Below, one piece after another: positions 39,731 through 44,434 of a DNA stretch of 64,000 bases (positions within the stretch are counted from its first letter, which is position 1; every line of letters begins with the position of its first letter). Under the pieces are notes generated by a model. The model was not told where the DNA came from, made no database searches, and saw only the letters and a program-made list of their open reading frames with translations. The translations under genes were made by a program, and so were the position numbers. The stretch is from NCBI RefSeq assembly GCF_001413925.1, contig NZ_LBMJ01000001.1, positions 1,259,001 to 1,323,000 of the forward strand, given 5' to 3'. Source of the stretch: Nonlabens sp. YIK11 (lineage in GTDB: Bacteria; Bacteroidota; Bacteroidia; Flavobacteriales; Flavobacteriaceae).

Positions 39731-41133
39731 TTCAAATTTGCTTGTTGGATTGCCTTTCTCAAGGCATTTGTTTTATTGTAAACTTCTTGGGTCTCGTTTT
39801 CTAGATTGCTTTCCACAACTACTCCAGCACCAGCTCTAAATTGCATCTTATTATTACTGGATAGAATGGTTCTTATGACGATGGCATGGTTGAAACTACC
39901 ATCAAAACCTAGGTATCCTATAGCGCCACCGTAAAATTGTCTAGCAGATTTTTCATACTTATCAATAAGCTCCATGGCTCTAAATTTAGGAGCGCCACTT
40001 AACGTTCCTGCTGGAAAAGTATCGCCTATAAGCGGTATACGGTCTTCTTCCTCAATCACACCAGTGACTGTGCTAACCATGTGAATCACATGAGAGTAGA
40101 AATGAATATTTTGATAGTCAGTCACTTGTACTTCACGAGCGTGGCGACTTAAATCATTTCGTGCAAGATCCACCAGCATGATATGTTCTGCCGTTTCTTT
40201 AGGGTCGTTTTTTAATTCTTTGGCGGCAGCTAGATCTGCTGCATCATTGCCAGTTCTTTTGTACGTACCTGCTATAGGCTGGATGCTCGCTTTATCATTT
40301 TTTATGAGTAATTGAGCCTCTGGCGAAGAGCCGAAAATTCTAAAATTTCCATAATCAAAATAGAACAAATATGGGCTAGGATTGATCGCTCGCAATTGAC
40401 GATATACATTGAAGTCATCGCCTTTGTACGCTTGGGTGAACTTTCTGGAAAGTACCATCTGGAAAACGTCACCTCGCTTGCAGTGGTCCTTGCCTTTTTC
40501 TACAAGATGTTTGAAATCGGCATCTGTCATTTCAGATTCTTCTGCGCCATCAGTGAAGAAATCATATTTTGCGATGTCTCTATGCTGTATGATGTTGATG
40601 AGGTTCTCCATTTTTGAAGTACCTTTTTCATAAACGTGATCAAAAACATATAGTTGATTGTGATAATGATCAAAGACCAGCACATTTTGGAATACCTGAT
40701 AATGCACTAATGGGATCGCTTCCTCATCAACGATTTTTTCTTTTGAGAATTCGATATTTTCAAACAGCTGTACCGCATCATAACTAAGATACCCAAAAAG
40801 CCCATTCGTGGGAAAAGGAAACTCTGTCGCTCCAGGATCAAATAGGTTTTTGAAATTCTCAAGCCCTTTTACGAGATTATAATCTGTAGAAAAATTCTGC
40901 TCATCTATCTTACCATCTGGTGTTGCGATGGAGACTTTATCATAGTCAATCTCAAAAGTCGCTACAGGATTACAGCAAATAAAAGAATAGCTGTTACTGC
41001 GTTGCCCATATTCATTACTCTCCAGCAAAATACTGCCAGGATATTTGTCCCGCAGTCGCATGTAAATGCCCACAGGCGTCATCGTATCTGCCAGGACTGT
41101 TTGGTGCGAAGTAGTAGGTTTAAAAACTTTCAT
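39727..41133 (-). CDS. trpE: Anthranilate synthase component I
   Basis: The protein has 468 residues. A chorismate-binding domain occupies the C-terminal 260 residues, with GDVFQMVLSRKFTQ, SPEAQLLIKND, PIAGTYKRTGNDAADLA, EHIMLVDLARNDLSRHA, TFPAGTLSGAPKFRAMELI and AGAGVVVESNLENETQE. The N-terminal part carries the Trp feedback site LLESNEYGQRSNSYSFI. It is the first structural gene, preceded by the trp leader and attenuator. Confidence 0.97.
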   Translation of the reverse strand: MKVFKPTTSHQTVLADTMTPVGIYMRLRDKYPGSILLESNEYGQRSNSYSFICCNPVATFEIDYDKVSIATPDGKIDEQNFSTDYNLVKGLENFKNLFDPGATEFPFPTNGLFGYLSYDAVQLFENIEFSKEKIVDEEAIPLVHYQVFQNVLVFDHYHNQLYVFDHVYEKGTSKMENLINIIQHRDIAKYDFFTDGAEESEMTDADFKHLVEKGKDHCKRGDVFQMVLSRKFTQAYKGDDFNVYRQLRAINPSPYLFYFDYGNFRIFGSSPEAQLLIKNDKASIQPIAGTYKRTGNDAADLAAAKELKNDPKETAEHIMLVDLARNDLSRHAREVQVTDYQNIHFYSHVIHMVSTVTGVIEEEDRIPLIGDTFPAGTLSGAPKFRAMELIDKYEKSARQFYGGAIGYLGFDGSFNHAIVIRTILSSNNKMQFRAGAGVVVESNLENETQEVYNKTNALRKAIQQANLK

Positions 41134-41162
41134 TATATCTTTTTAAATGGAAATAGGCTAAT

Positions 41163-41190
41163 AAAAAAGGCCTGCCGTAAAGCAGACCTT
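41163..41190 (-). terminator. Attenuator terminator of the trp operon
   Basis: On the minus strand AAGGTCTGC (41190-41182) and GCAGGCCTT (41176-41168) form a 9-bp stem (one G-T pair) with a 5-nt loop, followed by TTTTTAT. It lies 24 bp after the leader peptide stop and about 30 bp before trpE. Confidence 0.9.
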
Positions 41191-41214
41191 GTATATTCAT
41201 TCATACGGGTGACT

Positions 41215-41268
41215 TCACGGCTGTTGAGCTATGTTATTCCACCACCAAGTATGATTTGTTCTTTCCAT
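41215..41268 (-). CDS. trpL: Trp operon leader peptide
   Basis: The 17-residue ORF MERTNHTWWWNNIAQQP has three consecutive TGG codons, ending in TGA. It is placed between a strong promoter and a terminator hairpin, as in classical Trp attenuation. The ATG is 7 nt from the -7 box, the same as in the his and asn leaders. Confidence 0.93.
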   Translation of the reverse strand: MERTNHTWWWNNIAQQP

Positions 41269-41275
41269 TGAAGTG

Positions 41276-41307
41276 TAAAGATAATTACGCTTTCGCGAAA
41301 GCGCAAA
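41276..41307 (-). promoter_or_regulatory. Promoter of the trp operon with palindromic spacer
   Basis: On the minus strand TTTG (41307-41304) is followed by a 20-nt spacer and TATCTTTA (41283-41276), close to TAnnTTTG. The spacer contains a complete copy of the 14-mer palindrome (41288-41303). Transcription should begin at or within a few bases of the leader ATG. Confidence 0.72.
41288..41303. repeat. Palindrome copy inside the trp promoter spacer
   Basis: CGCTTTCGCGAAAGCG fills most of the spacer between the -33 and -7 elements of the trp promoter, directly after TTTG. A protein bound here would block the promoter. Confidence 0.9.
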
Positions 41308-41324
41308 CATTTTAAGCCCACATT

Positions 41325-42986
41325 TTAATATCCATCATCGTGAACTCCAGCAACCGCTCTACCAGATGGATCATTCATATTCTTGAATGCGGCATCCCAT
41401 TCTAAAGCAATAGGAGTAGAGCAGGCCACAGATTTTACTGATGGCACACAACTAGCTGCGGCATCACTAGGGAAGTGATCGCTAAAGATGCTGCGATAAT
41501 AGTACTCTTCCTTGCTTTGTGGTGGGTTGATTTTGAACTTGTATTTAGCAGATTCCATCATTTCATCAGTAACCTGTTCGTTTACAGTTTCCTTTAGAGT
41601 ATCGATCCAGCTGTATCCTACACCGTCGCTAAATTGTTCTTTCTGTCTCCAGGCCACACTTTTTGGCAAGTAGTCTTCAAAGGCTTCACGTAATATGTGT
41701 TTTTCCATCTTGCCTTTACCGCACATCTTATCCTTAGGGTTCAAGCGCATGGCAACATCCATGAATTCTTTATCAAGGAAAGGCACGCGACCTTCAATTC
41801 CCCAAGCAGCCAAGGATTTGTTGGCTCTCAAGTTATCATATAGGTGTAGCGTGTCCAATTTGCGAACGGTTTCTTTGTGAAATTCTTCTGGACTAGGTGC
41901 TTTGTGAAAGTATAGGTAACCTCCAAAAATCTCGTCACTACCTTCTCCAGATAGAACCATTTTAATACCCATGGATTTGATTACTCGAGCCAATAAATAC
42001 ATAGGTGTGGAAGCTCTTACCGTGGTCACATCATAGGTTTCCAAATAATAAATGACATCTTTTATGGCATCAAGACCTTCCTGAATCGTAAAGTTGACAC
42101 TGTGGTGCACGGTACCTATATGTTCCGCAACCGTTTCTGCAGCTGCAAGATCTGGACTGCCTTCAAGACCTATCGCAAAGGAGTGTAATTGTGGCCACCA
42201 AGCGTCTGCATAATCGCCAGACTCAACACGCCTTGCGGCATATTTTTTTGCTACGGCACTGACAATAGAACTGTCCAGTCCACCAGAAAGCAACACGCCA
42301 TAAGGTACGTCACTCATCAGGTGTCTGTGAACGCTATCTTCCATCGCTTTGCGCAACTCTTTTACTGAACTTGTGTTGTCCTTTACGGCATCATAGTCTT
42401 TCCAATCGCGATCGTACCACTTTGTAAATTCTTTGTCCTCACTATAATAGTAGTGCCCTGGTGGGAACGGTGCGATTTCATTGCAGGTTCCTTCTAAGGC
42501 TTTCAATTCACTTGCTACATAAAACTGTCCCATTTCATCTGTCCCATAATACAATGGTATAATTCCTTGATGGTCGCGAGCACATAAGAATACATCCTTA
42601 TCGCTGTCATAAAGCGCAAAACTGTACATGCCAACTAAATCATCCATAAAATTGACGCCTTTATCTTGATATAAGGCAAGGATAACTTCGCAATCTGATT
42701 TTGTCTTGAATTTATAATCAGTGTATTGTTCACGTATTTTCTGGTGATTATAGATTTCCCCATTTACCGCCAAAACGATTTTGCCATCTGGACTATATAA
42801 CGGTTGTCCACCAGATTGTGGATCCACAATGGTCAGGCGCTCGTGAGCGAGGATGGCCTTTTCACCACAGTAGATTCCTGACCAGTCTGGACCACGATGT
42901 CTTAGTTTTTTTGAAAGTTCAAGTACATCCTGTCGTTGGTCTGCACTGCTTTTTTTTAGATCGAATACTCCTACGATTCCGCACAT
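41325..42986 (-). CDS. asnB: Asparagine synthase (glutamine-hydrolysing), AsnB type
   Basis: The protein has 553 residues. The N-terminal class II amidotransferase has catalytic Cys2 (MCGIVGVFDL), LRHRGPDWSG, AVNGEIYNH and RDHQGIIPLYYG. The C-terminal synthetase has PP-loop GVLLSGGLDSSIVSA, the aspartate site VLSGEGSDEIFGGYLYF and GRVPFLDKEFMDVAMRL. It converts Asp to Asn using Gln and ATP. It is preceded by an Asn-rich leader peptide and a terminator, so its expression should fall when charged Asn-tRNA is plentiful. Confidence 0.97.
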   Translation of the reverse strand: MCGIVGVFDLKKSSADQRQDVLELSKKLRHRGPDWSGIYCGEKAILAHERLTIVDPQSGGQPLYSPDGKIVLAVNGEIYNHQKIREQYTDYKFKTKSDCEVILALYQDKGVNFMDDLVGMYSFALYDSDKDVFLCARDHQGIIPLYYGTDEMGQFYVASELKALEGTCNEIAPFPPGHYYYSEDKEFTKWYDRDWKDYDAVKDNTSSVKELRKAMEDSVHRHLMSDVPYGVLLSGGLDSSIVSAVAKKYAARRVESGDYADAWWPQLHSFAIGLEGSPDLAAAETVAEHIGTVHHSVNFTIQEGLDAIKDVIYYLETYDVTTVRASTPMYLLARVIKSMGIKMVLSGEGSDEIFGGYLYFHKAPSPEEFHKETVRKLDTLHLYDNLRANKSLAAWGIEGRVPFLDKEFMDVAMRLNPKDKMCGKGKMEKHILREAFEDYLPKSVAWRQKEQFSDGVGYSWIDTLKETVNEQVTDEMMESAKYKFKINPPQSKEEYYYRSIFSDHFPSDAAASCVPSVKSVACSTPIALEWDAAFKNMNDPSGRAVAGVHDDGY

Positions 42987-43005
42987 AATGATTGGTTTTT
43001 AAATG

Positions 43006-43034
43006 AAAAAAGGTCTACTTTGAAGTAGACCTTT
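43006..43034 (-). terminator. Attenuator terminator of asnB
   Basis: On the minus strand AAAGGTCTAC (43034-43025) and GTAGACCTTT (43017-43008) form a perfect 10-bp stem around TTCAAA, followed by TTTTC. It starts about 28 bp after the leader stop and ends about 20 bp before the asnB ATG. Confidence 0.9.
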
Positions 43035-43062
43035 AGAATATTATTAAATATCAGAGACTACC

Positions 43063-43113
43063 CTACGTTTGTGAAGGATTATTATTAGTTCTGAAATTAT
43101 TATTTTGTGACAT
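43063..43113 (-). CDS. Asparagine leader peptide of asnB
   Basis: The 16-residue ORF MSQNNNFRTNNNPSQT has six Asn codons (all AAT) in two triplets, ending in TAG. It is flanked by a -33/-7 promoter 7 nt upstream and a strong hairpin terminator downstream, matching the his and trp leaders in every dimension. I infer attenuation of asnB in response to charged tRNA-Asn. Confidence 0.9.
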   Translation of the reverse strand: MSQNNNFRTNNNPSQT

Positions 43114-43120
43114 AACGAGA

Positions 43121-43151
43121 CAAACATAATTAAAAATTCTTAGTAAACAAA
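43121..43151 (-). promoter_or_regulatory. Promoter of asnB leader transcript
   Basis: On the minus strand TTTG (43151-43148), a 19-nt spacer and TATGTTTG (43128-43121) give a perfect Bacteroidota housekeeping promoter, 7 nt before the leader ATG. Confidence 0.8.
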
Positions 43152-43171
43152 TTTAATGCTATGAATCAGCG

Positions 43172-44434
43172 ATGAGTAAATTTCTTAAGATACTGGGTCC
43201 AGGTTTAATATTTGCCAGCACCGCCATTGGAGTAAGCCACTTGGTTCAAAGCACCAGAGCTGGAATGATTTATGGATTTGGATTTTTGATGGCAATAGTG
43301 GTGATCAACATATTGAAGTATCCCTTTTTTGAATACGGAACCAGATACGCTGCAGGTACTGGAGAAAGTCTTATCGACGGCTATGGACGTATGGGGAAAT
43401 GGGCTATAGGGTCCTATTTTTTTGTAATGATCGTGAGTTTATTCTTTGTTAGTGCCGCCGTTTTTAATGTAACCGCCGTCTTTATGAAGGAGCTGTTCCA
43501 AATACAGACACCAACTAGCGCTTTTGTCCCATTGTTATTGGTGATCGTGTCCTGTTTTGGGATTTTGGCTTTTGGGAAGTTTACATTGTTGGATCATCTC
43601 ATCAAGATTGTAGGCTTTTTGATGATCGTTTGCACCTTGGTATCCCTTGTTTTGGTCTTGATTAAAGGTCCTGCCATACCATCCTCAAATTTTGTAGCGC
43701 CAGAGTTATGGTCTCTTACCACCATACCATTTGCTATTGCTTTAATGGGTTGGATGCCTACCGCTGTAGATTTAAGTACCTGGAATAGTTTATGGACTCT
43801 TGAAAAACAAAAATCTAGCGGATATAAATCTACGGTAAAGCAAGCTACTGGGGAATTTGCCTTAGGTTATTGGATCAGTGCAGTTCTAGCTGTGATGTTT
43901 TTGACGTTAGGTTCTTATTTGGTGTATGGTACAGATACTTTAGTGGCATCCAGTAGTGCAGATTTTTTTAATCAGGTCATAGGTCTGTTCACTGGTGCGA
44001 TAGGTGAGTGGTCCTATTATGTAATTGCAGTTGCGGCTTTTTGTATCATGTACGGCACGAGTATAGGCGTGCTGGATGGTTATTCTCGAGCGCTTAAAAG
44101 ATCTTGCGAGGTTCTATTCCTAAAAGGAACTGAAGTAAATTCAAAATGGTACTTGGTCGCTTTGATTATAACGGCTACAGGAGGTTTTGTGATCAATTAT
44201 GTTTTGAGTGATAACCCAAAAGGATTTTTATTGCTCGTAGATATAGCCACTATATTATCCTTTCTATTTGCACCTATTGTAGCGGTTCTCAATTATAAAT
44301 TGGTCACCAATAGAAAATTCCCAAAAGAACACCAACCTAACTTTTTGATGAGGTCGATTTCTCTTTTGGGAATTACTGTGCTGATTTTATTCTCAGTTGT
44401 ATATATCTTCTACTACTTTGGAGGTTTTGACTAG
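43172..44434 (+). CDS. Nramp-like membrane transporter lacking the canonical metal-site motifs
   Basis: The protein has 420 residues with 11 predicted transmembrane helices, starting KILGPGLIFASTAIGVSHLVQ. Overall it aligns in pattern with Nramp/MntH (GPG start, long hydrophobic helices, conserved YG motifs). Helix 1 has TAIGVSH instead of the metal-binding DPGN, and helix 6 has LMGWMPTAVDL instead of the canonical MPH. It is therefore an Nramp-like subgroup whose substrate may differ from Mn/Fe. It is convergent with msrA, with stop codons overlapping at 44431-44434. Confidence 0.85.
   Translation: MSKFLKILGPGLIFASTAIGVSHLVQSTRAGMIYGFGFLMAIVVINILKYPFFEYGTRYAAGTGESLIDGYGRMGKWAIGSYFFVMIVSLFFVSAAVFNVTAVFMKELFQIQTPTSAFVPLLLVIVSCFGILAFGKFTLLDHLIKIVGFLMIVCTLVSLVLVLIKGPAIPSSNFVAPELWSLTTIPFAIALMGWMPTAVDLSTWNSLWTLEKQKSSGYKSTVKQATGEFALGYWISAVLAVMFLTLGSYLVYGTDTLVASSSADFFNQVIGLFTGAIGEWSYYVIAVAAFCIMYGTSIGVLDGYSRALKRSCEVLFLKGTEVNSKWYLVALIITATGGFVINYVLSDNPKGFLLLVDIATILSFLFAPIVAVLNYKLVTNRKFPKEHQPNFLMRSISLLGITVLILFSVVYIFYYFGGFD

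Follow-up and report, generated by a model that had tools for sequence, protein, structure and literature searches.

A probable asparagine-codon attenuator before asnB in Nonlabens and similar leaders before gatC-like/gatA genes in other Flavobacteriaceae

In a stretch of 64,000 nucleotides of DNA from Nonlabens sp. YIK11 (the window; host assembly of 3.26 Mb in two contigs), a short open reading frame with runs of asparagine codons and a terminator-like hairpin precede the asparagine synthase gene asnB. This raises the question whether translation of asparagine codons controls the synthesis of asparagine. In enterobacteria, leader-peptide attenuators are known for the trp, his, leu, ilv, thr and phe operons. 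Judging from the sequence, asnB is very probably under the control of a leader-peptide transcription attenuator with charged tRNA-Asn as its signal and would be switched on only when asparagine runs low.

The first-pass annotation had described a promoter TTTG-N19-TATGTTTG and, after a gap of 7 nt, a 16-codon ORF with six AAT codons in two triplets, followed by a hairpin and asnB. All of these elements were seen on the minus strand (Table 1). The 7 nt lie between the end of the -7 element and the leader ATG at 43113, the AAT triplets occupy 43104-43096 and 43086-43078, and the stop codon TAG is located at 43065-43063. The hairpin with its T-run was present as well and only its length had to be corrected, from 10 to 11 pairs (10 without the outer A-U pair). 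The run consists of six T, the first three of which lie inside the stem, and 22 nt separate the hairpin from asnB with its ATG at 42986. The asnB product matched NCBIfam NF006949, asparagine synthase B, over the full length with 926 bits and also Pfam Asn_synthase. Because the gene upstream of the leader (43172-44434) is divergent, the terminator does not belong to the 3' end of an adjacent gene.

Table 1. Features of the asnB leader region and of the neighbouring trp leader; positions are those of the window.
Feature	Positions	Strand	Basis
Promoter, Bacteroidota-type, TTTG-N19-TATGTTTG	43121-43151	-	sequence scan
Leader ORF MSQNNNFRTNNNPSQT with stop, six AAT codons in two triplets	43063-43113	-	ORF reading
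Outer 1:2 stem: leader codons 43094-43090 with UCUGA 43055-43051, extended by 43098-43096 with 43049-43047	43047-43098	-	MFE fold and pair counts
Inner hairpin over the leader stop codon, CCUUCAC/GUAGGG	43061-43077	-	MFE fold
Antiterminator 2:3, GGUAG 43062-43058 with CUACU(U) 43028-43023	43023-43062	-	pair counts, masked-ribosome folding
Intrinsic terminator 3:4, 11 pairs	43009-43034	-	hairpin scan, fold
asnB, glutamine-hydrolysing asparagine synthase B, controlled gene	41325-42986	-	profile matches
trp leader MERTNHTWWWNNIAQQP and terminator 41190-41167, before trpE	41167-41268	-	ORF/hairpin reading

Asparagine accounts for 5.3% of the codons in window ORFs of more than 200 codons, and the probability of at least six Asn among 15 codons is 7.5e-5. 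Among 1117 ATG ORFs of 8-40 codons in the window, the asnB leader was the only one with at least six Asn codons. The promoter pattern TTTG-N18-20-TANNTTTG occurred twice in the window. A scan with the sigma-70 consensus, which is unsuited to this phylum, stayed at chance level with 12 found and 11.3 expected. The leader RNA of 127 nt folds with -22.7 kcal/mol (z = -4.8 compared to shuffles).

An intact Asn-codon leader with terminator was found before asnB in 21 of 23 Nonlabens genomes, and this conservation supports the attenuator interpretation put forward in the first pass. The 21 leaders of 15-18 codons contain 6-8 Asn codons each, mostly in two runs, and near-invariant T columns follow the hairpin. 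A -7-like element, TANNTTTG or TANNTTTA, ends 4-8 nt 5' of the leader ATG in 19 of the 21 aligned leaders as located by script; in the remaining two, L089 and L093, it was found by reading the letters. The gene farther upstream varies among Nonlabens species, being msrA or a transporter. Among the loci listed, Nonlabens ulvanivorans is the nearest named relative with an AsnB that is 88% identical. Two genomes deviate: G012 (locus L106; 78% completeness) carries asnB in pieces with internal stops and a decayed leader, which still reached 86.6 bits with the leader covariance model, and G017 has asnB without a leader.

Pairing was counted for three helices (outer 1:2 stem, antiterminator and terminator) in an alignment of the 21 Nonlabens leaders (A1). 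For outer stem and terminator, 94.9% of the cells were paired compared to 93.1% in shuffled and at most 57% in slid alignments; four pairs showed two-sided changes, with 0.8 expected from shuffles. The terminator alone was paired in 99.6% of the cells. The five-pair antiterminator core GGUAG/CUACU, which competes with the terminator and excludes it, is possible by sequence in 21 of 21 leaders. Including a sixth pair, 99.2% of its cells were paired (at most 58% when slid), a percentage equalled by 362 of 500 shuffles. Since these columns hardly vary, the antiterminator shows neither an excess over shuffles nor a two-sided compensatory change, and its one-sided changes give four further pair types. 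Compensatory changes, which had been suggested as a check, are thus present in the outer stem and the terminator and missing from the antiterminator helix. The inner hairpin shares bases with the antiterminator strand and, as read by eye, is re-formed by other letters in other leaders.

The influence of a translating ribosome was modelled by masking the RNA from 12 nt before to 15 nt after the first P-site base; region 4 was taken as not yet transcribed. In the absence of a ribosome, the antiterminator probability ranged between 0.00 and 0.45 in the 21 leaders. Its median was 0.04 as opposed to 0.32 with shuffled flanks, with single leaders mostly not extreme, as only one of 21 was lower than every one of its 60 shuffles. 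Placing the A-site 5 to 12 codons ahead of the stop raised the antiterminator to at least 0.88 in all 21 leaders, and it amounted to at least 0.85 at 129 of 135 Asn codons. The remaining six codons, all near the start, gave values between 0.00 and 0.73. A ribosome at the stop codon reduced the antiterminator to 0.00 in 21 of 21 leaders, an outcome that follows from the mask chosen. Within the masked-folding model, the ribosome position seems to select the structure, but partly through the mask itself, and for single leaders the shuffled flanks provide a weak control.

Stalling, termination and the response to asparagine are what we infer from the anatomy, its conservation and the alternative pairings, and the switch would work as follows. 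Given the promoter spacing, transcription would start at the leader AUG or only a few bases away, and a ribosome would load on the leader immediately. With ample Asn-tRNA, it would arrive at the stop codon, which adjoins the antiterminator strand, and mask that strand, which after release of the ribosome would be captured by the inner hairpin. As long as the strand is occupied, the terminator would form and asnB would be off. With scarce Asn-tRNA, the ribosome would stall at the Asn codons and open the 1:2 structures, and region 2 (GGUAG) could pair with region 3 (CUACU) while region 4 is still to be transcribed. With 2:3 paired, no terminator would form and asnB would be transcribed.

The element could alternatively be an sRNA gene, or a constitutive terminator or insulator, with an Asn-rich ORF that is incidental or encodes a small protein; an sRNA would have no use for Asn codons or for a stop codon adjoining the antiterminator strand. 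The distance of about 75-110 nt between promoter and terminator does resemble an sRNA gene, and the Rfam sRNA GibS gave a weak sub-threshold match of 26.4 bits (gathering 115). However, the distance of the Asn-codon runs to stop and terminator is similar in the 21 of 23 genomes that retain them, and a second set of Asn leaders, described below, precedes gatC-like/gatA genes, so that this reading appears extremely improbable. Attenuation could alternatively act on translation or via Rho, or the leader could be a sensor of general starvation instead of asparagine, which we regard as very improbable. The hairpin enters the six-T run, and the near-invariant T columns of the 21 leaders are typical of intrinsic termination. 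This speaks against translational or Rho-dependent control, although merely 22 nt lie between hairpin and asnB and translation initiation in Bacteroidota works without a strong Shine-Dalgarno sequence. A sensor of general starvation is at odds with conserved runs that consist specifically of Asn codons, the Trp leader next to the trp operon carrying Trp codons instead.

Transcription attenuation by Asn codons, as preferred here, resembles the enterobacterial attenuators in its short ORF rich in codons for the product, its stop beside region 2, its competing antiterminator and terminator and the biosynthetic gene downstream. It differs from them in that asparagine would be sensed, in the two runs of Asn codons on either side of the 5' arm of the 1:2 stem, and in the start codon 4-8 nt behind the -7 element, which leaves scant room for a Shine-Dalgarno sequence. 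The neighbouring Trp leader has a common layout with the Asn leader and matched Rfam RF01692 Bacteroid-trp, which senses Trp, below the threshold (32.4 bits, gathering 49). For the Asn leader, no Rfam match at gathering was obtained when the whole window was searched, nor any match to RF01692, and at E up to 1 in 40900-43300 no amino-acid leader family fell on it. That search returned six sub-threshold rows. Bacteroid-trp and Trp_leader were placed on the Trp leader, and the four remaining rows look like chance. A T-box was detected neither at gathering in the window nor at E up to 1 in 40900-43300. Asn-specific T-boxes stand before asnA, asnB and asnS, and a two-codon Glu/Asn T-box precedes gatCAB in Clostridium. 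They share the logic that charging of Asn-tRNA controls an asparagine synthase or GatCAB. Nevertheless, T-boxes bind the tRNA directly without a translated ORF, whereas the Asn leader would sense it through the Asn codons of the leader ORF.

Outside the genus, 105 upstream regions of asnB were inspected, namely 78 of the best 80 loci (two being Nonlabens) and 27 further loci (L119-L145); both sets are the best matches listed and not a random draw. Terminator-like hairpins within 300 nt upstream of asnB occurred in six of the 105 regions. An Asn-rich short ORF together with a terminator was found in one, L030, a Flavobacteriaceae MAG with the peptide MTFNNLNNNNFT. Asn-rich ORFs alone were as frequent as in shuffled regions (7 vs 6.3 with any start, 4 vs 3.5 with ATG). 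The leader was therefore rejected as a general flavobacterial feature of asnB and is regarded as a lineage-specific device. The expectation that relatives would conserve the Asn codons was borne out within Nonlabens (21 of 23) and not beyond it (1 of 105). In the RNA of L030, the stop is followed by a hairpin, with which a pairing of 7 bp can compete. Folded without a ribosome in the model, this RNA favours the antiterminator (0.99), which is prevented once a ribosome sits at the stop. In a Bacteroidales MAG (L003), a terminator lies 80 nt before asnB and a short ORF contains three scattered Asn codons, possibly a further Asn leader.

A quick AsnB tree was calculated from 91 rows, i.e. the 80 best-match loci and 11 Nonlabens sequences, a twelfth being dropped by length. 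Nonlabens AsnB formed a clade (support 100) outside the clade of the other Flavobacteriaceae rows (99), and L030 was placed inside this main flavobacterial clade, beside Zunongwangia and Rufibacter (98). The deepest forks were weak (46). Given this placement, asnB of Nonlabens may be foreign to the family, and the asnB leaders of Nonlabens and L030 probably have separate origins.

A covariance model of the 21 Nonlabens leaders (R1) was run on 397 genomes of the family. Among the matches listed were Asn leaders of four Nonlabens genomes and ten leaders of other genera with 52-69 bits and E values of 1.8e-9 to 4.7e-6 per genome, e.g. MKNNNNNNNFNNPKF. All ten precede an ORF of about 88 codons, and an amidase gene comes next in the four loci that were read further. 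At L149, the small ORF is GatC-like (Pfam E 6.5e-4, NCBIfam E 1.2e-4, both below the cut-offs), and the best match of the amidase is gatA. From the weaker R1 rows (about 46), the 26 loci L149-L174 were read: they include the ten gat leaders and at least six trp leaders (L159, L163, L168, L169, L172 and L173). The rest look like ordinary terminators, as do the weak R1 matches in the window's own genome (L113-L118). The 1:2 stem of the ten aligned gat leaders has the Asn codons themselves as its 5' arm, and an antiterminator of 8 bp is formed by GGAAGGUU/AGCCUUCC. The free RNA favours this antiterminator in the folding model, and a ribosome at the stop removes it. As the free RNA prefers the antiterminator, the gat leaders and L030, which differ in this respect from the Nonlabens leaders, are not off by default in the folding model alone.

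A second covariance model built from the ten gat leaders (R2) was run on 299 Flavobacteriaceae genomes and gave matches with E of at most 1e-15 in 28 genomes from 24 genera; eight of these genomes had been used in building R2. The next match (G135, E 1.5e-7) showed no Asn leader by script. An Asn-rich leader peptide was present in 28 of 28 genomes: 26 were located by script, one more at L190, and one, with a GTG start, by eye at L201. In 26 genomes, the leader was followed on its contig by a gatA match at a distance of a few hundred bases; gatA lies on another contig in G191 and was not found in G145, so that 27 of 28 gat-leader genomes have gatA. In the gat case, the sensed Asn-tRNA would be the direct product of the regulated enzyme. 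A gat leader in every gatA genome was rejected, since none was seen in the ten, out of 17 gatA genomes without a strong R2 match, that were read upstream. The best R2 match in the window's own genome, L205 (G000:C1:134900-136100), has a leader MKPSGSINVISIIIQT with Ile codons, and the downstream ORF resembles dihydroxyacid dehydratase, both judged by eye; it is a probable ilv attenuator.

The same 299 genomes, which are related so that the counts are not independent events, were searched for both asparagine-making enzymes. AsnB of the window's type (E of at most 1e-100) was detected in 224 genomes and gatA (E of at most 1e-80) in 45, with 403-443 bits in 44 of them and 273 bits in G221, all under the curated cut-off of 481 bits. 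The 44 genomes with strong gatA and the 224 with asnB did not overlap when the lists were compared by eye; G221 is among the 224. All 28 gat-leader genomes belong to the 75 without asnB of the window's type. As these genomes lack this asnB, and it never co-occurs with strong gatA in the sample, predicted Asn-codon switches are found on either asparagine-making enzyme, asnB or gatC-like/gatA. No asparagine-synthase match over the TIGR01536 cut-off was obtained in 19 of the 28. The other nine encode another protein of this family in an open frame of 575-640 codons and, consequently, GatCAB is perhaps not their sole Asn route. AsnRS was present in 290 of 299 genomes, 27 of the 28 with a gat leader included. 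GatCAB is therefore not required just to charge tRNA-Asn, and its role in these genomes is likely asparagine synthesis. In Deinococcus and Thermus, asparagine is made by GatCAB. The exclusion of asnB and gatA in the 299 genomes suggests, by sequence alone, which flavobacteria make asparagine on tRNA. Three 99%-complete genomes with gatA (G201, G249 and G258) had neither asnB nor AsnRS at the thresholds used, and perhaps all of their Asn-tRNA is made by GatCAB. In 31 of the 299 genomes, neither asnB (E 1e-100) nor gatA (>400 bits) was found, for which other synthases, assembly gaps or auxotrophy are possible readings.

Attenuation was reportedly surveyed by Lopatovskaya and others in 2010. An Asn-codon leader of asnB or gatCA was found neither in Rfam 15 nor in the titles and abstract starts of the freely accessible literature searched. 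The transcriptome of Flavobacterium psychrophilum gave clues for leader-peptide attenuation before amino-acid operons (PMC9723704), and the main text of that study contains no occurrence of asparagine. No Asn leader appeared in passages of PMC7366714, PMC2965389, PMC4833913 and PMC1262725, and PMC5009743 was a false lead. The mechanism is of a known kind; asparagine as the sensed residue, the version on gatC-gatA and the mutual exclusion of both Asn routes look new. Asparagine would be added to the amino acids sensed via leader-peptide attenuation, and within one family the putative switches stand on AsnB as well as on its alternative, the tRNA-dependent GatCAB route to asparagine.

The Nonlabens Asn leader is next to a canonical Trp leader before trpE, which was found in the 21 Nonlabens loci read (MKRTNHTWWWNNTAQQP and alike). 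Of the genome-wide matches to the Asn-leader model, this trp leader ranked second in 20 of 23 Nonlabens genomes and was the sole one in G017; for G005 and G012, the match ranked second was located elsewhere. The scores of the trp leader reached 66.3 bits in G009 (next match 34.9) but were 42.9 in the window's genome (next 37.7) and 40.6 in G014 (next 40.1). A profile of the 3' part without the Asn codons was searched against 1.05 Mb of loci and matched trp leaders with E down to 8e-11, the best unrelated terminator with 4e-5 and gat leaders with at least 0.03. The resemblance of the 3' half to the Trp leader suggests re-use. Copying of the adjacent trp leader and a change of its codons is the simplest reading, and the trp leader is a possible source of this half; similar palindromes may also arise alone. 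The likeness of both leaders makes it possible to test whether an attenuator has switched from one amino acid to another.

In a joint reading, Asn-codon attenuation would have arisen repeatedly among Flavobacteriaceae, each time on the enzyme that provides asparagine: on asnB in Nonlabens and in the distant lineage L030, and on gatC-gatA in two dozen genera without this asnB. The asnB of Nonlabens would be foreign to the family and directly upstream of the trp operon, and its leader would have been copied from the trp leader with Trp codons changed to Asn codons. We hold this reading tentatively and rate it somewhat short of probable. It is unlikely that the Asn leaders of asnB in Nonlabens, of asnB in L030 and of gatC-gatA are one ancient element that was moved between genes. 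The detection of the ten gat leaders by R1 at 1.8e-9 to 4.7e-6 per genome speaks for it, but the similarity resides largely in the Asn-coding half, and the 3' part matches gat leaders at E of 0.03 or more, as opposed to values down to 8e-11 for the Nonlabens trp leaders. Moreover, the quick tree has the AsnB of L030 inside the main flavobacterial clade and that of Nonlabens outside. A palindrome of 14 bp, GCTTTCGCGAAAGC, is an abundant repeat with 25 copies in the 64 kb, where none is expected, e.g. at 41289-41302, and is also located in several trp leader regions.
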